Of a stretch of 39,532 nucleotides of DNA, positions 2,809 through 18,476 are shown piece by piece. The position numbers and the translations under genes are program-made. The notes under the pieces were generated by a model that saw nothing but the letters and a program-made list of their open reading frames with translations, did not search any database and had not been told where the DNA came from. Where the stretch lies: positions 1 to 39,532 of the forward strand of contig JAIRZI010000041.1 of NCBI GenBank assembly GCA_031267295.1, in the 5' to 3' direction. The DNA is from Propionibacteriaceae bacterium. Its GTDB lineage: Bacteria > Actinomycetota > Actinomycetes > Propionibacteriales > Propionibacteriaceae. How positions within the stretch are numbered: the stretch's first letter is position 1; each line of letters starts with the position of its first letter.

Positions 2809-3435
2809 GTGAGAAAAATCAGTATTGCCGGGCTTATCAGATTAGTTCGCTGGCACCGCCTCGGCTTGGGGTTGGCGGCAGTAGCAGTGAGCGTGTTAGC
2901 TGGAGTGTCAATGATAACGACGGCTATTCGCGGCTCTACCACGCCCATCGTGGTAGCCGTTCATGCAATCTCCCCAGGCGCTCAAATCAGCGCCACTGAT
3001 GTGAAGTTGGTGGAGTGGCCAGTTGAATACGCACCGCCGGAAGCATTTAACACGCTCGCGGAAGTAGTGGGACGCCGGATGGTGAGTCGGGTATCTGAAG
3101 GAGTGCCTTTGACGAATGACGGTTTCACCATAGCTGCCATCCGTGACGACACCACCGCCGAAGTGTTGGTGCCGGTACGCACCCGCGACACCGCGATGCT
3201 CACACTGCTACACCCCGGGGCGCTGGTAACCCTAGTGGGCGTTGCGCCGGAGGGATACGCAGAAACATTAGCCACTCAGGTACGTGTAGTTTCGCTACCC
3301 GATTCAATTGAAGAAGATGCCATTATGGGTGGCAGTATCGACAGCGGCGCACTCATTGTGATTGCTTGTCGCCGTGCAGATGCTATTACTATCGCCGGAG
3401 CGGCCGGAATGACAATCACTATCATCATTGAATAA
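2809..3435 (+). CDS. SAF-domain membrane protein (CpaB/RcpC-like)
   Basis: A 208-residue protein with a basic N-terminus and one membrane helix (about residues 18-40), then an extracytoplasmic SAF domain (about 46-110). The SAF features are the VVVAVHAISPGAQISATDVKL start and the VGRRMVSRVSEGVPLT strand-turn. A C-terminal beta-rich segment follows. SAF domains occur in CpaB/RcpC pilus assembly proteins and in short actinobacterial proteins coded beside 5-formyltetrahydrofolate cyclo-ligase, which is the context here; no pilus genes are nearby. The start is GTG at 2809, shortly after a weak purine-rich stretch. The gene converges on the minus-strand ORF ending at 3453, leaving 17 bp. Exact function unknown. 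Confidence 0.75.
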   Translation: MRKISIAGLIRLVRWHRLGLGLAAVAVSVLAGVSMITTAIRGSTTPIVVAVHAISPGAQISATDVKLVEWPVEYAPPEAFNTLAEVVGRRMVSRVSEGVPLTNDGFTIAAIRDDTTAEVLVPVRTRDTAMLTLLHPGALVTLVGVAPEGYAETLATQVRVVSLPDSIEEDAIMGGSIDSGALIVIACRRADAITIAGAAGMTITIIIE

Positions 3436-3452
3436 TCGCGATATTGCTAAGT

Positions 3453-3962
3453 TCAACCCACCGAGCCATGATGCGGAGGCACTTCGGCCAACAGTCGAGC
3501 GTCCCCAGCAGTTAGCGCAGTGGAAGCGTCACGTAACCTCACCTTAGCTGGCGCCGTTAAGGCCATCACGGCAGCACGAGCGGAAACGAACTGAGCAGCG
3601 CTACCTGCATACTCATTCGCCGCTACCGGCAATGGCCAGCGGTTACCAGCAGCTCTCCTAGCGTCACGTAACGCGGTAATGCGCCGTGAACTCCACCCTG
3701 CTGTGGCTAGCCAAGCCGCTACAGCGGCAGCGTCTTCTGGCGACACTCGTTGCGTAGGCAACGCCACTAGTTCACCAGTCAACGATTTGGCCAACGCCGT
3801 CAATAGTGTGCGGGCGGCGGACGGAAACTCGCAAGAAACCGCGTTGGAAACTTGAGCGTCGTAACTACACTCTTTAGCAATATCGCTAACTTGAGGTACT
3901 TCGCACGGAAACTTAGCCGCTCCACTTACCCCATTCGTTTGTTCAAGTTGTGTGCCATCCAT
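3453..3962 (-). CDS. Hypothetical alanine-rich protein downstream of tRNA-Arg
   Basis: An open frame of about 170 residues fills the otherwise empty space between the SAF gene and tRNA-Arg. The C-terminal two thirds is Ala/Arg-rich and helical in character (for example PEDAAAVAAWLATAGW and RRITALRDARRAAG), while the N-terminus is less regular. I recognise no family. The only ATG (3962) lies two bases beyond the tRNA discriminator base, so a normal ribosome site is impossible unless the true start is an internal TTG or GTG. The message could come from tRNA 3' processing, or translation may start further in. It could also be a decayed gene. Confidence 0.4.
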   Translation of the reverse strand: MDGTQLEQTNGVSGAAKFPCEVPQVSDIAKECSYDAQVSNAVSCEFPSAARTLLTALAKSLTGELVALPTQRVSPEDAAAVAAWLATAGWSSRRITALRDARRAAGNRWPLPVAANEYAGSAAQFVSARAAVMALTAPAKVRLRDASTALTAGDARLLAEVPPHHGSVG

Positions 3963-3963
3963 G

Positions 3964-4036
3964 CGACCCCGGGGCGACTCGAACGCCCGACACATGGTTT
4001 AGGAAACCACTGCTCTATCCACTGAGCTACGGGGTC
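3964..4036 (-). tRNA. tRNA-Arg (CCT)
   Basis: A 73-nt cloverleaf: acceptor GACCCCG/CGGGGTC with discriminator G, D arm GCTC/GAGC, anticodon loop TTCCTAA (anticodon CCT), and T arm with TTCGAGT. The 3' CCA is not encoded. Confidence 0.96.
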
Positions 4037-4125
4037 AAGTCCAGTCGCGGCTCGACCAAGCCCTAATTCTACAAGTTAGTTGATCGATTCTTGGCAGAGC
4101 GTCGCTTTTGGTACGAACCTCTCGG

Positions 4126-4593
4126 CTAGTTCTTAACAAGCAGGATGTCATCATCATCGGGGGCGGGCGTTTCAACAGCATCGCGACGCGACAATTCAAC
4201 GAAACCACAGTTCTCCAGCACCGCCAAAGCTCGCGGGTTAGTAGAGAGCACATGAGCATGAATCGGACGGCTGTGATCCAGACTGAGTATTCGAGCCATA
4301 GCTTCCGTAGCCAAACCTCGACCCCAAGCTATTCGGCGAATCCAGTAGAACACTTCTCGCCCAGCCGGCCCGTCAAAAGTCATAATAGCTCCGACAAAAT
4401 GCCCCGCCACCATCATGGAGTAGAGCTTGATACTCGGGTCGGCTTTTAGCTTTTCAATATGAGCTTCAAACTCGGCGCGAGTATCCGTGTCTATAATCAC
4501 GAAAGGTGCCATTTGTCGAGAATCTGGGTCGGAGAGCATACCAAACATCGCATCCATGTCGGTACCCTGCACGGGACGCAAAACCACTGCCAT
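4126..4593 (-). CDS. GNAT-family N-acetyltransferase (RimJ/RimL-like)
   Basis: A 155-residue single-domain GNAT protein, expected to move an acetyl group from acetyl-CoA to an amine such as a protein N-terminus. The N-terminal VLRPVQGTDMDAMFGMLSDP fits the first strand and helix of the fold. The acetyl-CoA-binding turn is RIAWGRGLATEAM (about residues 86-98), and the closing NPRALAVLENCGF is the typical RimJ/RimL motif. The short acidic tail (PAPDDDDILL) is not conserved in the family. A MoeA-cyclo-ligase-RimJ neighbourhood is seen in other actinobacteria, which supports the subgroup. It lies 89 bp upstream of tRNA-Arg on the same strand. Its substrate cannot be read from sequence. Confidence 0.85.
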   Translation of the reverse strand: MAVVLRPVQGTDMDAMFGMLSDPDSRQMAPFVIIDTDTRAEFEAHIEKLKADPSIKLYSMMVAGHFVGAIMTFDGPAGREVFYWIRRIAWGRGLATEAMARILSLDHSRPIHAHVLSTNPRALAVLENCGFVELSRRDAVETPAPDDDDILLVKN

Positions 4594-5130: not shown

Positions 5131-7404
5131 TCAGTGTATTATCTTAAACTTTTCATACAGCCAGGCAAGTGGTTTCGGTGCCCACCAATTCCAGCGTCCA
5201 AGTACTGTCATAGTAGCGGGCACTAACAACATTCGCACCAAAGTCGCGTCCGTCAACACTGTGATAGCGAGCGCCACTCCGATTTCCTTGATGGCAACCA
5301 TGTCACCAAAAGTAAACCCGACGAACACCGCGACGATGATAGCCGCAGCCGATGTGATGATACGCCCAGAGCGCTGTAATCCGCGTTCCACCGCTTCGTC
5401 ATTTGTGAACCCAGCATCCCAATATTCTTTGATGCGCGCCAACAAGAACACCTCATAATCCATAGCTAACCCGAACCCAAATGAGATCGCGCAGACAATG
5501 ATGAACGTCTCCAATCCCAACACTTTTGGCATCCCTAACCACCCATGCTCGAAGATGAAAACCGTTGCCCCCAAAGATGCCAACAGCGACAATGAATTGA
5601 TGAGTAACGCCTTAAACGGCACTATCAAAGAGCCGGTCATTAGGAACAACAACACCAGCACTGAAATCAGCACGATAGCGCCCGCTAATGGAGCATTTCG
5701 CCAGATAGCCGCAACGAAATCATGTTGCTGCGCCGCCGCACCACCTACCAGAATCGGGTACTCAATATCTAAACCATCACCGGCACGCAACGCAAGCACC
5801 ATGTCGGTGATCTTCTCACCAACCTGATCTTGTGCAGCGACGTGTAACGAAATCAGCGTGCGAGTGGGGTCGGACGCTAAAGGTTGCGGTGGCATTACGA
5901 AATCCACGTCCGGCAGTGAACCCAGATACTGATACAGCGGCAATGCACTATCAGCCGTGGTGTCAGCCACCACCACAATCGACTGGCTACGCAGTGCCGG
6001 ATACTGGTTCTGCACAATATCGTATGCCGTAGCCACTGGAGCATCAGGCGGTAAGTATTCGTCAAACGCCGTGCGAGCTTTAAGGTCGCGAATCGGCCAA
6101 GCCATCGCAGCAAGAATGGCAGCAACCACCGTCATAATTATCCAAGGATGACCGTGCACAAAATGCGCCAGTTTAGAGAACACACCATGATCGCCAGACG
6201 AATCACTCATCGCTTTAGACAACTGTTTCAGCCCAGGCACACGCGAAATCAGCGCCGGACGTACCAAAGCGTTCCCAAGCAACACGATCACTGCGGGCAC
6301 TAAAGTAACCGCCGTAGACACTGCGAGCACCGTCACCACCACGGCACCAAAAGCGATAGTTTTGAAGATGGCCGATTCCATAACAAACAGACCAGCTAAA
6401 GCACAGGCGATAGTCAACGCAGAAAATGACACCGTACGCCCCGCAGTGGCAACGGTATTACGCACCGCTCGAACCACCACCGCAGGTACATCCACTTCGG
6501 AGTGATGAGCTTCCGGGATAACGGTCGGCACATCATCACCGGAGAGAATCTCGGCCAACTCTTCGCGGTAACGCGACACCACTAGCAGACCATAGTCGAT
6601 TGATAACGCCACACCGATGATAGAGATCACGTTCAAGTTAAACGAATCCACACCTCGGTAGAACGTCAGCGCCCACACCGCGCCCAACCCCACCCCGATT
6701 GAAACCAATGCGCCTAATAGCGGCAATCCGGCGGCGATAACACCTCCGAAAACAATAATCATTAGCAGTAGCGCAATTGGTAGCCCAACACTTTCAGAAC
6801 GGATGAGGTCTTCACGTACCAGTTCGTTGATGCTATCGCCCACTTTAGCGTTGGAAAGTTCGTACACCCGCGCATCGGGCAGGGTTTGACGTAACGCTGT
6901 CTGCAATGTGGCAGCCGAATCATCCAACGTTTTTCGTGCGGTATGCAGCGCTTCGCCGTCTAAGTCGGAAAACTCAGGTTTTAAGGTGACTACGGCAGCA
7001 AAACCCGCGCCCTGCGACGAGTAGAACCCCAACGCCTGTTGACCTTGCGGATCGGGGAAACTGAATGGGCTGGTCACTGCGGATATCCATTCGTTGCTCA
7101 TCATCCCGTACAGCGCCGTCACCATAGCGCCAACTTTTGTTTGATCAGTGAATAACTGCGCCACCGGCACACCGTCGACTACCAACACCACAGATTCGCT
7201 ACCATCGGCAGCCCGCGTCAACCGTTCCACTTCAGACGATTCGGTGCCAGTCGCCATAGTTTCCGACGATTCCATACGATCAAACAACCCACCTTGTCCA
7301 AACCCGAAGAATGCCCCCCCGACGGCAGCGCCCAATATCAACAGCCAAAAGAAGATAAATATTCGCGGGTGCTTAGTAAGACCGTTCCCCAGTTTTGTGA
7401 ACAT
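5131..7404 (-). CDS. MMPL-family (RND superfamily) transporter
   Basis: A 757-residue integral membrane protein with the internal duplication of the RND superfamily. Each half has one helix (about 13-35 and 418-438), a large extracytoplasmic loop and a five-helix bundle (about 205-385 and 575-745). The Asp-Tyr proton-relay pairs are intact in both halves: LSIDYGLLVVSRYRE (D270-Y271) and LAMDYEVFLLARIKE (D649-Y650). MmpL proteins export lipids or siderophores using the proton gradient; short ones like this also act in general efflux. The cytoplasmic stretch between the halves (near 385-415) is short. A good ribosome site (GAGGA) lies 9 nt before the ATG. The downstream small acidic gene is coupled. 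No regulator gene is adjacent, and the substrate is unknown. Confidence 0.92.
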   Translation of the reverse strand: MFTKLGNGLTKHPRIFIFFWLLILGAAVGGAFFGFGQGGLFDRMESSETMATGTESSEVERLTRAADGSESVVLVVDGVPVAQLFTDQTKVGAMVTALYGMMSNEWISAVTSPFSFPDPQGQQALGFYSSQGAGFAAVVTLKPEFSDLDGEALHTARKTLDDSAATLQTALRQTLPDARVYELSNAKVGDSINELVREDLIRSESVGLPIALLLMIIVFGGVIAAGLPLLGALVSIGVGLGAVWALTFYRGVDSFNLNVISIIGVALSIDYGLLVVSRYREELAEILSGDDVPTVIPEAHHSEVDVPAVVVRAVRNTVATAGRTVSFSALTIACALAGLFVMESAIFKTIAFGAVVVTVLAVSTAVTLVPAVIVLLGNALVRPALISRVPGLKQLSKAMSDSSGDHGVFSKLAHFVHGHPWIIMTVVAAILAAMAWPIRDLKARTAFDEYLPPDAPVATAYDIVQNQYPALRSQSIVVVADTTADSALPLYQYLGSLPDVDFVMPPQPLASDPTRTLISLHVAAQDQVGEKITDMVLALRAGDGLDIEYPILVGGAAAQQHDFVAAIWRNAPLAGAIVLISVLVLLFLMTGSLIVPFKALLINSLSLLASLGATVFIFEHGWLGMPKVLGLETFIIVCAISFGFGLAMDYEVFLLARIKEYWDAGFTNDEAVERGLQRSGRIITSAAAIIVAVFVGFTFGDMVAIKEIGVALAITVLTDATLVRMLLVPATMTVLGRWNWWAPKPLAWLYEKFKIIH

Positions 7405-11478: not shown

Positions 11479-12213
11479 ATGACACAGCTATCCGCTGAAA
11501 TATATACTCGCCCCGACGGCACTCCAATCCGTATTTTGGCAGTAGACGACGAACCGAGTCTCACAGAGTTACTTTCGATGGCTTTCCGTTATGAAGGATG
11601 GCAAGTAACCACAGCAAACTCCGGGTTGGCTGCCGTACGAGCCGCCAAAGAAACGAAACCTGACGCTATTGTGCTCGACATAATGATGCCGGATTTTGAC
11701 GGGTTGGAGGTGATGCGCCGTATCCGCAACGACCAACCCAACATGCCAGTAGTTTTTCTAACTGCAAAAGATGCGCTAGTCGACCGCGTAGCCGGGCTGA
11801 CGGCTGGTGGGGACGATTATGTAACTAAACCATTCAGCTTGGAAGAACTAGTAGCGCGTATTCGAGCGCTGCTCCGTCGGGCTGGGATGACGCGAGTAAC
11901 TGACGAATCGCTGCTGCGAGTAGGCGAACTCACTATGGACGAAGACAGCCACGAGGTGTTCCGAAATGGTGTTGAAATCAAACTCACCGCCACTGAATAC
12001 GAACTACTGCGGTTTATGATGCGCAACCCGAAACGAGTGCTCTCCAAAGCACAAATCCTGGATCGAGTGTGGAACTATGACTTCGGCGGACAGGCAAACA
12101 TTGTCGAGTTGTACATCAGTTACTTGCGTAAAAAAATTGATGCCGAGCAAGAGCCGATGATTCACACTTTGCGCGGTGTCGGGTACGTGCTACGCCCAAC
12201 GAAAGGTCAGTGA
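11479..12213 (+). CDS. phoP: OmpR-family response regulator, PhoP-like
   Basis: A 244-residue DNA-binding response regulator. The receiver domain (about 17-130) has the acidic pocket D23/D24, phospho-acceptor D67 (VLDIMMPDFDG), T95 and K117 (GGDDYVTKPFSLEE). The winged-helix effector domain (about 145-240) has VLSKAQILDRVWNYDFGG and HTLRGVGYVLR, very close in wording to mycobacterial PhoP. It is expected to bind direct-repeat sites when phosphorylated by the kinase encoded next. The stop overlaps the kinase ATG (TGATG), so the pair is coupled. The ATG has only a weak ribosome site. The PhoP name rests on sequence similarity and the pit context; the sensed signal is unknown. Confidence 0.85.
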   Translation: MTQLSAEIYTRPDGTPIRILAVDDEPSLTELLSMAFRYEGWQVTTANSGLAAVRAAKETKPDAIVLDIMMPDFDGLEVMRRIRNDQPNMPVVFLTAKDALVDRVAGLTAGGDDYVTKPFSLEELVARIRALLRRAGMTRVTDESLLRVGELTMDEDSHEVFRNGVEIKLTATEYELLRFMMRNPKRVLSKAQILDRVWNYDFGGQANIVELYISYLRKKIDAEQEPMIHTLRGVGYVLRPTKGQ

Positions 12214-13748
12214 TGGCTTCCAGTGCCGCTGGGCTGGCTTGGCTACGTACTCGGTACGCATGGGTAAATGGCAAAATCACTCAATTTGCCCAAACGCTCA
12301 AACCTGTGGCGCTGGATTTAGGGCTACTACCGAAAGGCACCTTAAGCAGGCGGTTAATTCTGCGCACCGCAGCTATCTTGGCGGCACTGTCCATCGTGCT
12401 TGGCATCACCACTTCAATAACAATGCAGCGCATCATGGAGCGCAATATTGATAAATCGCTCGCCGCCAGCCAAGCCGCTTTCTGGGGACGGCCTCCAGTG
12501 ACCCTCCCCGGCGGACATGCGATGAACGGGCCGGGAGAAACTGGCTTGGAAGTGGTGATTCGCGCTGGTGTCGTCTACGTGTCGCAGGTGTATAGCCATA
12601 GCGCCACTGTGGGGTTGAGCATCGAACAGATAGCGCAACTTAGGGTGGTACCCCCCAACGGAGAACCGGACAATGTGAGCGTTTCCGGGTTCCGCGAATG
12701 GCGGGTTTCCCGGCAGATTCACGACGATGTTGAATACATAGTCGCTATGCCCACTCGCGGGCTATATGAGTTCACCAATGAGGTGGTGTTCATCGAAGTG
12801 GTAGTGACGTTGATCTCTATCGCTATCGCCGCTGTCGTGGTAAACGTCGTAGTGCGCAACTCGATGCGTCCACTTTCACAGATGGCCGAGACCGCCGGAC
12901 GGGTCGCAGCGTTGAACTTGGGACGCGGCGAAGCACGTATCGCCGAACGGGTGCCGATAGACCCAGACGGTGCCACATCCGAAGTGGGACAAGTGGCGTT
13001 AGCACTCAACACCATGCTGGACAACGTAGACAATGCTCTAGTAGCCAGGCAACTATCTGAAACTAAACTACGACAGTTTGTGGCCGACGCTAGCCATGAG
13101 TTACGCAACCCACTAGCGTCGATCAGAGGATACGCAGAACTCACTCGCCGGGAACGCGCCGACCTGCCAGCAGACACAAGTTTCGCGCTGACACGCATCG
13201 AGAGCGAATCAAAGCGCATGAGTAAATTGGTAGACGATATGCTGCTGTTGGCTCGACTCGATGCCGGACGCGAACCAACGCTAACCGAGGTGGACCTAAC
13301 TGAACTGCTAGTCAATGCGGTATCCGATGCCCAAGTGGCCGATCATAACCATAGTTGGTCGCTCGATGTGCCGGATATGCCTGTACTGGTACATGCCGAT
13401 AGTGGACAGTTACACCAGGTATTAGTGAACCTGTTATCCAACGCGAGAAAACACACCCCTGCTGGCACAAAAGTTGCAGCAGCGGTGCGAGTGAGCGCCG
13501 ACAATCAGTGGATAGTACTTACCATCACCGACGACGGCCCAGGAATCTCCGCCGACGCGCTACCTAAAATCTTTGAACGTTTCACCCGTGCCGACACCGC
13601 TCGCACCCACAATGCCGAAGCCTCCACCGGACTAGGGTTATCCATCGTCGCCGCAGTGGTGTCCGCCCACGGTGGCCAAGTCTGGGCGGAATCCGTGCCC
13701 GGACGAACCGTATTCACCGTAATGCTACCCGGCGCAGTTAACCTTTAA
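12213..13748 (+). CDS. phoR: Sensor histidine kinase, PhoR-like
   Basis: A membrane histidine kinase of about 511 residues. Numbered from the GTG at 12210, it has an N-terminal cytoplasmic segment of about 48 residues, helix 1 (50-72), an extracytoplasmic sensor loop (73-190), helix 2 (192-216), a HAMP domain (217-271), HisKA with the phospho-acceptor H296 (FVADASHELRNPLASIRGY) and HATPase_c. The latter shows the N box NLLSNARKHT, G1 DDGPGIS and G2 STGLGLSIV. It should phosphorylate the PhoP-like regulator. ATG 12213 overlaps the regulator stop and AAAGG precedes it; the adjoining GTG 12210 is also possible. All catalytic boxes look intact. Confidence 0.93.
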   Translation: MASSAAGLAWLRTRYAWVNGKITQFAQTLKPVALDLGLLPKGTLSRRLILRTAAILAALSIVLGITTSITMQRIMERNIDKSLAASQAAFWGRPPVTLPGGHAMNGPGETGLEVVIRAGVVYVSQVYSHSATVGLSIEQIAQLRVVPPNGEPDNVSVSGFREWRVSRQIHDDVEYIVAMPTRGLYEFTNEVVFIEVVVTLISIAIAAVVVNVVVRNSMRPLSQMAETAGRVAALNLGRGEARIAERVPIDPDGATSEVGQVALALNTMLDNVDNALVARQLSETKLRQFVADASHELRNPLASIRGYAELTRRERADLPADTSFALTRIESESKRMSKLVDDMLLLARLDAGREPTLTEVDLTELLVNAVSDAQVADHNHSWSLDVPDMPVLVHADSGQLHQVLVNLLSNARKHTPAGTKVAAAVRVSADNQWIVLTITDDGPGISADALPKIFERFTRADTARTHNAEASTGLGLSIVAAVVSAHGGQVWAESVPGRTVFTVMLPGAVNL

Positions 13749-14032: not shown

Positions 14033-15121
14033 TTATGGAGTGCGTAGTACGGTTACTGGGTCTCGGGTGGCTGCTATTACCGCGGGGCCGATCGCAGCTA
14101 TTAAAGCAGCAAGTAAGGTGAGAATTACGGTACCTGCGATGAAAGGCAACGGCACGCTGACATTCCAAGTTGCCAGCCGGGTAAGGGATGCGACTACTCC
14201 GAGCGCCACCCCGGATAGGGCGGCGATGAGAGTACGAAGCATGACCAGAGTGATCAGGGTTTGACGGGTGGCTCCTAGGGCGCGTCGTCTGCCCAAATCG
14301 GAGCGGCGCAGGAGTACGTCAGCTAATACGACCACACCGGTGAGTATCGCTCCGGCTCCCAACACGAGTAGCAGGAGTTGCCTGCCGAACAGGCCAAGGT
14401 CGTTTACTATTTCTCCCTGGAGTGTGGCTAGTGCGGCGGCGGATTTGACGGTGATGTCTTCCAGTTTGGGTGCGGCCACGATAGCTAATGTGAGTTGCTG
14501 CACAATGGCGACGCTGGCGGCATTGCGAGCGATGACATGTAGCGTGCTAGCGGTGGCATCGGGTTGGGCGGCAATTACGATGCCGGTTGCCATGTTAGTA
14601 AAGGGTTCGCGGGCGCTGAATGCACCAACAATCGGATACTCCTGCGCTCCTTGCATCGCATATCCGGTGGGATGGTCGTGGCCTAACGAACTCATAGCGG
14701 CTGCGGACACTAACGCTTCTCCTGGCAATGGGAAACGCCCGGCAGTGAGGGTAACTACGGCGCTAATATCTCCGACCACACCCCAAGCGGGCACTTGGGT
14801 GCCCCCGTCTGGGAGGGTGCCGGAACGCACATCTCGCGCTGTGGTGAACCCCACCGCACGCTCCACCACATCCAGCGCTGCCACAACGGACACCACGGAA
14901 GCACTGAACAAGTCGTTTTTCTTAATATCGCTGACGACGAGTTCCAGACTGCCTGCCTGCTCCATGCGAGCCATCATGTCGGCTTCCGCGCTAGCGGTAC
15001 GCCCCACGGTGAGCAGCGTGGTAACACACATGGACGCGCACAGCACCGCCACCATAAGCGCAGGCACTATACGGGTGCGGGTAGACACCCACACCTCATG
15101 TAACAACATCTTAGGTTTCAT
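14033..15121 (-). CDS. ABC transporter permease, FtsX/MacB-like
   Basis: About 362 residues in the MacB-type layout. There is one N-terminal helix (about 17-38), a long extracytoplasmic domain (about 40-240) and three C-terminal helices. The loop after the second helix reads RRSDLGRRRALGATRQTLIT, the classic FtsX-domain signature. Such permeases do not form a normal channel; they transmit ATPase movement across the membrane to drive envelope machines or peptide efflux. ATG 15121 is chosen because the protein proper starts MKPKMLLHEVW; 13 upstream in-frame codons look non-coding. It is the last gene of the operon and is separated from the ATPase by a 188-bp spacer flanked by direct repeats (listed separately). 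Confidence 0.85.
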   Translation of the reverse strand: MKPKMLLHEVWVSTRTRIVPALMVAVLCASMCVTTLLTVGRTASAEADMMARMEQAGSLELVVSDIKKNDLFSASVVSVVAALDVVERAVGFTTARDVRSGTLPDGGTQVPAWGVVGDISAVVTLTAGRFPLPGEALVSAAAMSSLGHDHPTGYAMQGAQEYPIVGAFSAREPFTNMATGIVIAAQPDATASTLHVIARNAASVAIVQQLTLAIVAAPKLEDITVKSAAALATLQGEIVNDLGLFGRQLLLLVLGAGAILTGVVVLADVLLRRSDLGRRRALGATRQTLITLVMLRTLIAALSGVALGVVASLTRLATWNVSVPLPFIAGTVILTLLAALIAAIGPAVIAATRDPVTVLRTP

Positions 15122-15335
15122 AACCGCACCCCAGCAGCACACTCCACCCCAAAGGAACAACGCTCCCCTCGCATTCGCGAACTATTCAACTCCACAACAC
15201 CCATCTGATAAACACCCATACTCCGAACACCCACAAGAACAGGAAGAAAAGCACCACTAACCATCATCCCCCCAAACGACACAACACTTTGCTTCCACAA
15301 TCAACCGTTTCATAACCGCACCACATCAGCAGCAC
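15115..15335. repeat. Direct repeats bracketing the ATPase-permease spacer
   Basis: TTTCATAACCGCACC occurs at about 15117-15131 and again at about 15308-15322. Each copy is followed within a few bases by AGCAGCAC. On the coding strand each copy carries GGTTATGAAAC, so each could serve as a start. The upstream copy overlaps the ATPase stop (TTATGA) and the downstream copy starts the permease. The roughly 175-bp spacer is C/A-rich and G-poor on the plus strand. Confidence 0.75.
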
Positions 15336-15945
15336 GTTCCACCACATAAGCGTTATGGGTAGCGACTAGTACCGTGCGTCCCTGGCGGGCGGCAGCACTT
15401 AAGGCAGCTAACACTATCTCGGAGTTTTCCATGTCAAGGTTGCCGGTGGGTTCGTCAGCCAAAATAATGCTGGGATCAGTGACCAGCGCCCGACATAAAG
15501 CGACCCGCTGTGCCTGACCACCCGAGATTTGGCCGGGACGATGCGCGCCACGATGCGCTAACCCGAACTCGGCTAACAGTTCTAACGCCCGGGGTTTCAC
15601 CTCAGCAATAGTGTGTCCCGCATATAACGCCGGTTCTATTACCGCATCCAAAATGGTACGGCTAGGGTCAAGTACGGCATCTTGAAACACAAAACCAATA
15701 CTGGAAGCCCGGATACGGGAACACTCCTCGTCTGCTAAACCGGAAACACTCACCCCATCAATCAACACCTGCCCAGTGCCAGGGCGTAGCAACAATCCCA
15801 ACAGATACAACAATGTGGATTTCCCCCGTCCGGACGCCCCAGTAAGCGCCGTCAATACCCCAGCCGTAAACTCCCGCGTCAATCCACCAAACAATTCCTC
15901 GCCACCTTTTCGATAAGCGAATGTCAAACCATTAACCGCTAACAC
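15310..15945 (-). CDS. ABC transporter ATP-binding protein, LolD/MacB-type
   Basis: A 211-residue ATPase with all motifs intact: Walker A GASGRGKST (36-44), Q loop FVFQD (Q88), signature SGGQ (141-144), Walker B IILADEP (160-166), D loop NLD (169-171) and switch histidine H197. The short size and the wording around DEPTGNLD fit the LolD/MacB/FtsE group that partners FtsX-like permeases. One substitution is notable: the usual P-loop GxSGSGKST has Arg in place of Ser (GRGKST). The GTG start at 15945 has a strong GGGAGG ahead of it. It powers the permease coded downstream and the adaptor coded upstream. Confidence 0.95.
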   Translation of the reverse strand: MLAVNGLTFAYRKGGEELFGGLTREFTAGVLTALTGASGRGKSTLLYLLGLLLRPGTGQVLIDGVSVSGLADEECSRIRASSIGFVFQDAVLDPSRTILDAVIEPALYAGHTIAEVKPRALELLAEFGLAHRGAHRPGQISGGQAQRVALCRALVTDPSIILADEPTGNLDMENSEIVLAALSAAARQGRTVLVATHNAYVVERAADVVRL

Positions 15946-16024
15946 GCACCCACCTCCCGATTCAAAACAACGCGACGGAAACCACCAGCAAGCAGCAAAC
16001 TAGTGGAAATTAGCATGCTACTCA

Positions 16025-17107
16025 TCACCCGTAAACCACGACCTCATCACCAACCGTCACCCCTGAGAGAACAGCCAACCCTTGCCCAGAACCCAATACC
16101 GTCACATCACGCTCACCACCGGCGGCCAATCGAACATAAACCCGCCCAACAGCATCAGTGCGCACCGCCCCCACTGGTACCACCATTCCGCTCACTTCCG
16201 GAACAACAACCGCCTCGGCTCTAAGTGATAACTGCTCATCCGCAGGCAGCCGGGCGCAATCTGCGCCGCACACCAATCCGCCGTCGGGGGCGCTCAATGT
16301 TCGTACCGTATAACCATAAGAATCAATCGTGCTCCCCGTCACCAGAGCTTCCCACATCAAATCCTCAAAATACACCCGCAACACAACGTCGGTGGCGATA
16401 GCAGCCGCCTGATCATCGGAAAGCACCGCAACGAACCCCAACGCACCGCTGTTCGCCAACACCGCCGCCTCACCGCCGCTAACCAATCGTCCGGTGCAAA
16501 TATCATCACCCAAACGGATGGTAGCGGGAAGACTGGGAACCGCCAGCACCTCACCCAGCAACACTGTGCCGGTGCGTTCCACACCAAGAACCTGCTGCCA
16601 GGCACGCACCGCGTTATACGTAGCCGTACCGAAATAATCACCACTATCGACGCTCAAATAACCCAGTTCTACGAGCGCCGCATTAAGCTGCGCCACATCA
16701 ACACCACGCGCTTCACGCGACAGATTACGATAAAACGGGATCGCTCCCGGCACCACTCGCACCGGTACACCTGCCACCTGAAACACCACATCACCAGTAC
16801 TTGCTTCACCAGCAGCAGCCACCATAGTCACCATGCCATACAGCGTATTGGTGGCCACCACTTCCATCGGTTGCCGTACGCTCACTCCGATACTCAAACT
16901 CCGACCAACCGCACCTGCTACCACACTCACATTCACACTCTCACTGCGGTTTTCGTCGGTACCGCCGCCGACAGCACCAGTCAACGTCATCCGCCCCGCC
17001 CACCAACCAGCAGCAACAGCCAATACCACCAAAACTACAGTAACCAGCAGCGACGCATGACGGCGCACCCCGGCAATAAACCGTAGCGCCGTCTTAAGGG
17101 TATTCAT
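16025..17107 (-). CDS. Membrane-anchored adaptor with peptidoglycan-binding domain
   Basis: A 360-residue protein with one N-terminal membrane helix (about 19-38) and an extracytoplasmic body. Residues about 133-182 form a PG_binding_1 domain (VDVAQLNAALVELGYL, then FGTATYNAVRAWQ). It is inserted where HlyD/MacA-like adaptors carry their hairpin. The C-terminal part (about 300-360) resembles the membrane-proximal domain of periplasmic adaptors (VPVGAVRTDAVGRVYVRL, GDEVVVYG). Such proteins accompany MacB-like ABC transporters in Gram-positives and may tether the complex to the wall. A CGADC pair (near 283) hints at a disulfide. GGAG precedes the ATG, 25 bp after the lipoprotein gene; the ATPase follows 79 bp later. 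Confidence 0.85.
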   Translation of the reverse strand: MNTLKTALRFIAGVRRHASLLVTVVLVVLAVAAGWWAGRMTLTGAVGGGTDENRSESVNVSVVAGAVGRSLSIGVSVRQPMEVVATNTLYGMVTMVAAAGEASTGDVVFQVAGVPVRVVPGAIPFYRNLSREARGVDVAQLNAALVELGYLSVDSGDYFGTATYNAVRAWQQVLGVERTGTVLLGEVLAVPSLPATIRLGDDICTGRLVSGGEAAVLANSGALGFVAVLSDDQAAAIATDVVLRVYFEDLMWEALVTGSTIDSYGYTVRTLSAPDGGLVCGADCARLPADEQLSLRAEAVVVPEVSGMVVPVGAVRTDAVGRVYVRLAAGGERDVTVLGSGQGLAVLSGVTVGDEVVVYG

Positions 17108-17132
17108 CTGCTCCGCCTAGTAAAGTAGTTCG

Positions 17133-17846
17133 TCATCCATTCGGCCACAGTATCTCGTTCGATGGGTTTTGTGGACATGCAATATTTAACTCTTCCCATG
17201 CCGTTTCGCTATAAGTGCTTGCTTTAACCGAACCGTATGGGAACCAGGCATCACTCCCAGCGGAAAATCCGCCAGAGCCGTCCGACACCCAACTATCACG
17301 GAACACCTCCCATGTCGGCGGTTCTGCAACTCGAATATTGCGCTCGGCCAAACATGGGATCAACACATTCACGTAATAATCAAACACCACCCTAATCTGA
17401 TCACCACCAAACACCTGAACTAACCACGGTGGTATGGGGAACTGCGCGAAACATACATATTCGTCTAAGTAATACGCACTTAACTGATCCGATGGCAAAT
17501 CATCCGGGGGTGCCATACCCGAATCAAAAGTGAGATAAACCGCCCAACCGGCAGCGAGCATACACTCTTTCCACGCCTCGGGGCGTTCAGCAGGTGCAAC
17601 AAAGCGAACAACCTGTACTTTTGGGAACTCCGTTAGCAATCCGAAATACATTGTTTGAAGTTCTTTGAGGAACCCCCCATAATCAAATTCTTCTTCCTGT
17701 GACGATACGGAACCAGTTGACTTAGGCGGTGTAGCAACATCCCCCTGGTTGCTGCACCCACCCAACATCGCAGCGCACAAAGCCGCCGCAACCAACAAAA
17801 CAGCGTAACGACTAAGTCTTAAACAGCGCACGGATATGTTACGCAT
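17133..17846 (-). CDS. Lipoprotein of the peptide-export operon
   Basis: About 237 residues. The signal peptide has a basic n-region, a hydrophobic core (VLLVAAALCAAM) and a lipobox LGGC, so Cys about 31 should be lipidated and the protein held on the outer face of the membrane. A Ser/Glu linker leads into a folded domain rich in aromatics with four further cysteines (KECMLAAGW, YVCFAQFP, LIPCLAERN, NIACPQNP), likely two disulfides. I recognise no family. ATG 17846 has GGGG upstream; a GTG two codons earlier is possible. It overlaps the secreted-peptide gene by 28 bp, so the two are coupled. Position suggests immunity, capture or chaperoning of the peptide, which is inference. Confidence 0.8.
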   Translation of the reverse strand: MRNISVRCLRLSRYAVLLVAAALCAAMLGGCSNQGDVATPPKSTGSVSSQEEEFDYGGFLKELQTMYFGLLTEFPKVQVVRFVAPAERPEAWKECMLAAGWAVYLTFDSGMAPPDDLPSDQLSAYYLDEYVCFAQFPIPPWLVQVFGGDQIRVVFDYYVNVLIPCLAERNIRVAEPPTWEVFRDSWVSDGSGGFSAGSDAWFPYGSVKASTYSETAWEELNIACPQNPSNEILWPNG

Positions 17847-18169
17847 ATACACGCCCCGCCATGACTATTAAGCGCACCAGTTGTAGTGATCACCACTTCG
17901 ACACTCCCAGACTGAGATGTAAAACCGCGGAGCGTATTAGTTGCGGTCAAGCCCCATAGCGGGGATAGCACATTATTATGCGAGTGACGTACGGTTTGAG
18001 ATGATGTACCAGATGTCACTGATTCTGAATAGCATTTCTTGGTTCCTTCGCATGTTCGATACTGGATACCCACATCTGCCATCGCATCAGAAGACGGTAC
18101 CGTAGTTGCTATTCCGGAAGCTACTAACGCAACAGCAGCCAACAAGCTGCCAGTTTTCTTGTTAAACAT
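17819..18169 (-). CDS. Small secreted five-cysteine protein
   Basis: A 116-residue precursor. The Sec signal has n-region MFNKK, hydrophobic core to about 24 and an AMA-D cleavage site after residue 31. The mature part is about 85 residues with Cys at 40, 46, 107, 109 and 114 (CEGTKKC near the start and CIC-CAV at the end), so disulfides are likely. The middle is Ser/Thr/Val-rich with alternating beta-strand character. ATG 18169 has GGAAAGGG before it, better than the earlier in-frame start at 18199. It is the first gene of a five-gene operon with a lipoprotein and MacAB-like ABC parts. Size, secretion and context resemble lactococcin-972-type bacteriocin clusters, but the cysteines are unlike that family and I do not claim homology. 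Confidence 0.75.
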   Translation of the reverse strand: MFNKKTGSLLAAVALVASGIATTVPSSDAMADVGIQYRTCEGTKKCYSESVTSGTSSQTVRHSHNNVLSPLWGLTATNTLRGFTSQSGSVEVVITTTGALNSHGGACICVTYPCAV

Positions 18170-18275: not shown

Positions 18276-18304
18276 ATGATAGTTAATAAATACAAACCGG
18301 TCAA
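18276..18304 (-). promoter_or_regulatory. Promoter of the secreted-peptide operon
   Basis: On the minus strand TTGACC (18304-18299) and TATCAT (18281-18276) are separated by exactly 17 bp, close to the housekeeping sigma consensus. Transcription would start near 18269, giving a leader of about 100 nt before the ATG at 18169. Confidence 0.65.
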
Positions 18305-18350: not shown

Positions 18351-18403
18351 CCCGCAATTCATGTTGAAGTTAGGGCAATGTCACAAAACTGCTTACTGTG
18401 TTG

Positions 18404-18476
18404 TGCCCCCAGCGGGACTCGAACCCGCGACCTAAGGATTAAAAGTCCTCAGCTCTGCCAACTGAGCTATAGGGGC
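18404..18476 (-). tRNA. tRNA-Lys (TTT)
   Basis: A 73-nt cloverleaf: acceptor GCCCCTA/TGGGGGC, discriminator A, anticodon loop CTTTTAA (anticodon TTT), T loop TTCGAGT. The 3' CCA is not encoded. Confidence 0.96.

Follow-up and report, generated by a model that had tools for sequence, protein, structure and literature searches.

Gene content of the cassette

The 39,532-nucleotide contig JAIRZI010000041.1 of a Propionibacteriaceae bacterium (assembly GCA_031267295.1), referred to below as the window, carries a compact cassette of five genes in one orientation. The cassette occupies positions 18169–14033 of the minus strand, after a tRNA-Lys gene. According to the list of open reading frames (ORFs) and inspection of the sequence, it encodes, in order, a small secreted peptide, a cysteine-rich lipoprotein, a membrane-anchored adaptor, an ATP-binding cassette (ABC) ATPase and an FtsX/MacB-type permease. 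The original prediction of a five-gene minus-strand operon in this order is accurate, with all five genes present; the 28-bp overlap that it gave for the peptide and lipoprotein genes is exact, the lipoprotein ATG lying at 17846.

The first gene (17819–18169, minus strand, including the stop codon) encodes a 116 aa peptide precursor. A Sec signal, assigned by inspection and not with a trained predictor, is predicted to be cut after AMA31, giving a mature part of 85 aa that begins at Asp32. The operon contains no modification enzymes. The cysteines are Cys40, Cys46, Cys107, Cys109 and Cys114. A homologue of the peptide is found in L002/L032 (34% identity, E-value 7e-4), and the alignment of the window subfamily (L070, L032 and L064) shows that Cys40, Cys107, Cys109 and Cys114 are kept, together with a V.H....V pattern. 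An odd number of cysteines, five, is present in the window peptide (17822–18169) and in that of L070 (8237–8560), while the relatives in L032 and L064 have four; the fifth cysteine could be free or dimer-forming. Searches against Pfam, NCBIfam and the PDB, with the single sequence and with a 20-sequence profile, returned no match.

The lipoprotein gene (17133–17846, minus strand) encodes a 237 aa protein, the proposed cognate partner or immunity protein of the peptide. It has the lipobox LGGC with lipid-bearing Cys31, and further cysteines at positions 95, 132, 165 and 224; all five are invariant in 27 of 27 aligned lipoproteins. Neither the single protein nor the 27-sequence profile has a match in Pfam or the PDB. 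The window copy has no match in NCBIfam (the 27-sequence set was scanned against Pfam and the PDB), and none of the curated families of immunity lipoproteins resembles the lipoprotein in sequence. An AlphaFold model of the lipoprotein with one relative had a predicted local distance difference test score (pLDDT) of 54 and was uninformative, and Foldseek gave no meaningful match.

The adaptor (16025–17107, minus strand; 360 aa) contains a PG_binding_1 domain at residues 134–181 (Pfam, E-value 3.4e-8), and a peptidoglycan-binding domain was found again in the PDB profile search. This domain alone was matched in the Pfam and PDB profile searches, with no match to an HlyD/MacA barrel-sandwich. The assignment as an adaptor is putative and follows from the N-terminal anchor, the gene order and the sequence pattern. 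Cys280 and Cys284, four residues apart, are invariant in the adaptor family, which suggests a small disulfide loop.

The ATPase (15310–15945, minus strand; 211 aa) falls in the LolD/MacB/FtsE group. The best NCBIfam models are LolD (5e-49), L_ocin_972_ABC (1.1e-45) and MacB (1.2e-44), and also FtsE, all scores being below the curated cut-offs; the PDB relatives are LolD and MacB. The permease (14033–15121, minus strand; 362 aa) has an FtsX C-terminal domain at residues 263–364 of the ORF (Pfam, E-value 6.3e-7). Comparison with relatives in L031 and L032 places its start at ATG 15121, not at TTG 15160. Some 220 residues separate the N-terminal hydrophobic segment from the FtsX domain, in keeping with an extracellular domain that follows the first transmembrane segment.

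The original prediction had described a mature peptide with two N-terminal and three C-terminal cysteines and no recognised motif, a lipoprotein with four cysteines beyond the lipidated one, an adaptor with an inserted peptidoglycan-binding domain, a LolD/MacB-type ATPase and an FtsX-type permease. The residue positions and the searches above agree with it in each of these respects.

Distribution, exchange and loss

The lipoprotein, adaptor, ATPase and permease genes occur together in about 30 of the 198 genomes of the family, as found by a lipoprotein profile search and an analysis of neighbourhoods of up to 18 kb per locus. The four-gene set is also present in three genomes of other actinobacterial families. 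In a survey of 396 genomes across the phylum, the lipoprotein was detected in at least four, namely the window's own genome and three from other families; this is a lower bound, since only the best few candidates per genome were scored. An adaptor profile was used besides the lipoprotein profile to counter the bias of starting from the lipoprotein, and the lipoprotein adjoins seven of the eight adaptor loci newly found in this way. No relatives of the adaptor were found among viral contigs and phages. The mobilizable plasmid NZ_CP083440.1 of Clavibacter sp. A6099 carries the adaptor, ATPase, permease, peptide and lipoprotein genes, in that order. The recurrence of one gene order in dozens of genomes shows that the operon layout is more than chance. 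The original prediction had been staked on a gene order shared with relatives and on the peptide lying outside known non-bacteriocin families; the order is conserved, and the peptide matches no known family.

A small secreted ORF stands directly 5′ of most of the lipoprotein genes. These peptides are divergent, about 75–90 aa long, and typically carry a C-terminal cysteine and another close to the start of the mature part; their sequences diverge almost completely, and the two end cysteines remain. Matches to a rule requiring an AxA signal, a mature part of 55–100 aa, a cysteine no more than 20 residues from the mature start and the last cysteine no more than 10 residues from the end numbered 22 in 53 kb of the strand upstream of lipoprotein genes versus two, of antisense type, in 1,404 kb elsewhere; the rule was fixed after part of the set had been seen, so that these counts measure pairing and not discovery.

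The loci L072 and L074, from two species of one genus, differ most where the peptide and lipoprotein are encoded. Nucleotide identity is 0.79–0.96 in the upstream DNA, 0.89 in the signal peptide and 0.90–0.93 in the adaptor, ATPase and permease genes, versus 0.47 in the mature peptide and 0.65 in the adjacent lipoprotein. Since synonymous divergence (dS) rises from about 0.25 to 1.1 in the peptide and lipoprotein genes, the mature peptide and the lipoprotein were exchanged together as a block and did not merely evolve fast. In L073, the permease is more distant (80% nucleotide identity), yet the peptide resembles that of L072 (73% amino acid identity). L069 contains two peptide–lipoprotein pairs ahead of a single pump, and L072 and L074 each contain a second lipoprotein gene without a peptide.

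The peptide gene can be lost with the other genes retained. In the nearest relative, L031 of genome G006, whose pump proteins are 68–81% identical to those of the window, the peptide gene (5185–5241) is cut in frame to 18 codons, MFKMHRAYCECVSSPCAA, and the lipoprotein and pump genes are intact. The remnant retains the start, the upstream region and the cysteine tail; it is better described as a short ORF than as a simple pseudogene. The peptide gene is frameshifted in L067 and truncated in L075, the remaining genes being intact in both; in L068, L077, L078 and L093 the damage to the peptide is accompanied by broken or incomplete copies of other genes. Two lipoprotein–pump loci that lack a short peptide have related secreted proteins of 155–162 aa at the 5′ side (L099 5842–6309 and L171 8834–9322), ending in SSGWTTW or ATGWTTW; these are possibly a different cargo.

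The insertion point in the window is marked by the tRNA-Lys (ttt) gene (18403–18476, minus strand; tRNA call and Rfam), whose 3′ end faces the cassette. The congener G005 has an empty site: its histidine-kinase gene ends 153 bp from tRNA-Lys, the cassette is absent, and the DNA on either side aligns collinearly with the window (68–80% identity). As the kinase is retained in G005 without the cassette, the histidine kinase beside the cassette is not a dedicated regulator. In G006 the cassette lies at another site, with a RecQ-type helicase region on one side and ribosomal protein genes on the other (names read from translations). An integrase-driven tRNA island was considered and is unsupported; no integrase was found, and the repeats at the cassette ends amount to a 10-bp match at chance level.

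Proposed function and its alternatives

The cassette probably encodes an unmodified, disulfide-stapled, polymorphic bacteriocin plus a lipoprotein that confers immunity and a protective YknXYZ/MacAB-like pump anchored to the wall. A bacteriocin–immunity system is favoured because of the joint exchange of peptide and lipoprotein, the loss of the peptide from otherwise retained cassettes, the tandem pairs, the orphan lipoproteins, the presence or absence at a tRNA gene and the carriage on a plasmid. The assignment of these roles to peptide, lipoprotein and pump is further based on the Sec signal, the LanI-like placement of the lipoprotein, the resemblance to YknXYZ and the precedent of propionicin T1. 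The chances are about even that such cassettes represent an undescribed class of actinobacterial polymorphic bacteriocins, in which Sec-secreted peptides stapled end to end by disulfides have the mature part and the immunity lipoprotein exchanged as a module ahead of a dedicated wall-anchored MacAB-like pump. Each component belongs to a known kind; no description was found of their combination or of the peptide and lipoprotein families. The literature searched contained no description of the five-gene set, an absence that is weak evidence.

In the proposed mechanism, Sec would export the peptide, signal peptidase would remove its signal, and disulfides involving the conserved N- and C-terminal cysteines would then staple it outside the membrane; the envelope of related bacteria would be its site of action. 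The lipoprotein, tethered to the producer's membrane and facing outwards, would bind the cell's own peptide and block it, by analogy with NisI and nisin. Together, the adaptor, the ATPase and the permease would constitute a MacAB/YknXYZ-like machine fixed to the wall by the peptidoglycan-binding domain, pushing the peptide, either free or passed on by the lipoprotein, off the membrane for protection and perhaps release. Since its Sec signal already provides a way out for the peptide, the pump more likely serves protection or extrusion than primary export. The five genes and their conservation as a unit, the adjacency and joint exchange of peptide and lipoprotein, the peptide loss from cassettes that keep the other genes and the empty site are observed directly; the toxicity, immunity, disulfide pairing, direction of the pump and target are putative.

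The cassette resembles the nisin immunity genes NisI and NisFEG in the position of a lipoprotein and an ABC transporter beside the gene of a secreted antimicrobial peptide; the window pump differs in being of the MacB/FtsX type with an adaptor. No genes of lanthionine synthesis are present among the five genes or beside them, and the peptide has a Sec signal. In Bacillus, the MacAB-like pump YknWXYZ confers protection against SDP, a secreted toxin with a disulfide (PMC4887032). It shares with the cassette a MacA-like adaptor, a separate ATPase and a MacB/FtsX-like permease in a Gram-positive host. However, the adaptor of the window has a peptidoglycan-binding domain, the window operon has no YknW-like (Yip1-family) gene, and SDP comes from the separate sdpC gene, whereas the window peptide and lipoprotein are encoded inside the pump operon. 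Propionicin T1, from propionibacteria, is Sec-secreted with a mature part of 65 aa, and an ABC gene 68 nt downstream has been suggested to confer immunity (PMC5756557). Propionicin T1 and thoenicin 447 are similar to the window peptide in being propionibacterial and Sec-secreted with an ABC gene on the 3′ side; no lipoprotein or adaptor is reported for propionicin T1, which was compared by description only. The Spr0693–0695 genes of Streptococcus pneumoniae are a three-gene MacAB-like adaptor–ATPase–permease set tied to antimicrobial peptide resistance (PMC5768738); as described, the operon differs in having no resident peptide gene.

Several points weigh against a bacteriocin. Antimicrobial activity is putative, being deduced from comparative evidence, and the clean exchange of peptide and lipoprotein is limited to one species pair. 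Across 18 loci, peptide similarity follows lipoprotein similarity weakly when the pump is allowed for (partial rank correlation 0.20, p 0.02). Several lipoprotein–pump loci have no recognisable peptide, and since draft or metagenome assemblies are the source of many copies, some of the broken peptides (frameshifts) could be sequencing or assembly errors. The AlphaFold model of the peptide alone was uninformative (pLDDT 36). Finally, an exchange of a ligand with its partner would fit a signal and its receptor equally well.

That last point leads to the main rival, in which the peptide is a strain-specific secreted signal that the lipoprotein would receive at the cell surface, with the FtsX-type ABC machine relaying the signal or clearing the peptide. 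The joint exchange of mature peptide and lipoprotein fits the specificity groups of peptide signals, and two-component systems are present near some loci (L032, and a convergent one at 11479–13748 of the window). However, the conserved unit includes no regulator, the window's histidine kinase persists in G005 without the cassette, an 85 aa cysteine-rich peptide is large for a signal, and it is unusual for a signal to be lost repeatedly from loci that retain lipoprotein and pump, or for orphan lipoproteins to be stacked. A signalling role has a small chance of being correct. The original prediction had left bacteriocin and signal side by side; comparative evidence favours a bacteriocin–immunity system, the sequence does not decide between the two, and its interpretation is borne out in part.

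A role in envelope or surface assembly, with a structural or adhesive peptide, the lipoprotein as its chaperone or receptor and a MacAB-like machine for release or display, is unlikely. A Sec signal, a lipoprotein and a wall-bound adaptor would suit the movement of a small folded protein across the wall, and Gram-negative MacAB machines are generally known to expel peptides from outside the inner membrane (see also PMC5985334). The patchy presence (about 15% of genomes), the extreme divergence of the mature peptide, its disappearance from otherwise retained cassettes and the plasmid carriage argue against it.

Lactococcin 972 was tested directly because L_ocin_972_ABC is among the best models of the ATPase. 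It too is unmodified and secreted by Sec, is similar in size and is accompanied by an ATPase of the related L_ocin_972_ABC/LolD/MacB group, and the cassette might be a system of this type diverged past sequence recognition. This is improbable: neither the window peptide nor any of 19 relatives matches PF09683 (0 of 20), a profile–profile comparison aligned 12 columns with no real similarity, and the gene set differs, none of the 16 lactococcin 972 loci in the same family having this lipoprotein, adaptor or permease. PF09683 homologues (L102–L135) are present in 15 of 197 genomes of the family; several share a genome with the present cassette, and some lie about 14 kb from it (G031:C14, G032:C46).

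FtsEX-like control of wall hydrolysis, with the peptide as hydrolase or regulator, would suit an FtsX-type permease and a peptidoglycan-binding adaptor and is highly improbable, as Pfam searches found no hydrolase domain in peptide or lipoprotein and the cassette, unlike division machinery, is patchy and absent in a congener.

If the bacteriocin–immunity proposal is true, two unannotated families can be identified as a toxin–immunity pair across Actinomycetota: a secreted peptide with cysteines at both ends and a lipoprotein with four cysteines. This would provide dozens of candidate antimicrobial peptides, each with a partner lipoprotein as a built-in predictor of specificity. It would also provide a monoderm example of a MacAB-like machine that has a wall-binding adaptor and works with a resident secreted peptide, and the role of many orphan FtsX/MacB pumps in Gram-positives would become testable.

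Other features of the locus

A candidate promoter, TTGACC-17-TATCAT, is located at 18276–18304 on the minus strand, about 107 bp 5′ of the peptide start; it is a pattern match only, and three such matches were found in the region versus 3.2 expected by chance. An Rfam scan across the operon gave the tRNA as its sole match.

The five-gene set of L032 has a histidine kinase and a response regulator on its 5′ side. Directly 3′ of the set are another ABC ATPase (3428–4150) and a second secreted protein of 138 aa (4160–4576).

The ATPase and permease genes are separated by about 190 bp in the window operon; in relatives the two genes overlap. The additional stretch (15115–15321) is bounded by a perfect 15-bp direct repeat, GTTTCATAACCGCAC, at 15115 and 15307; it is G/T-rich on the coding strand and single-copy in the genome.

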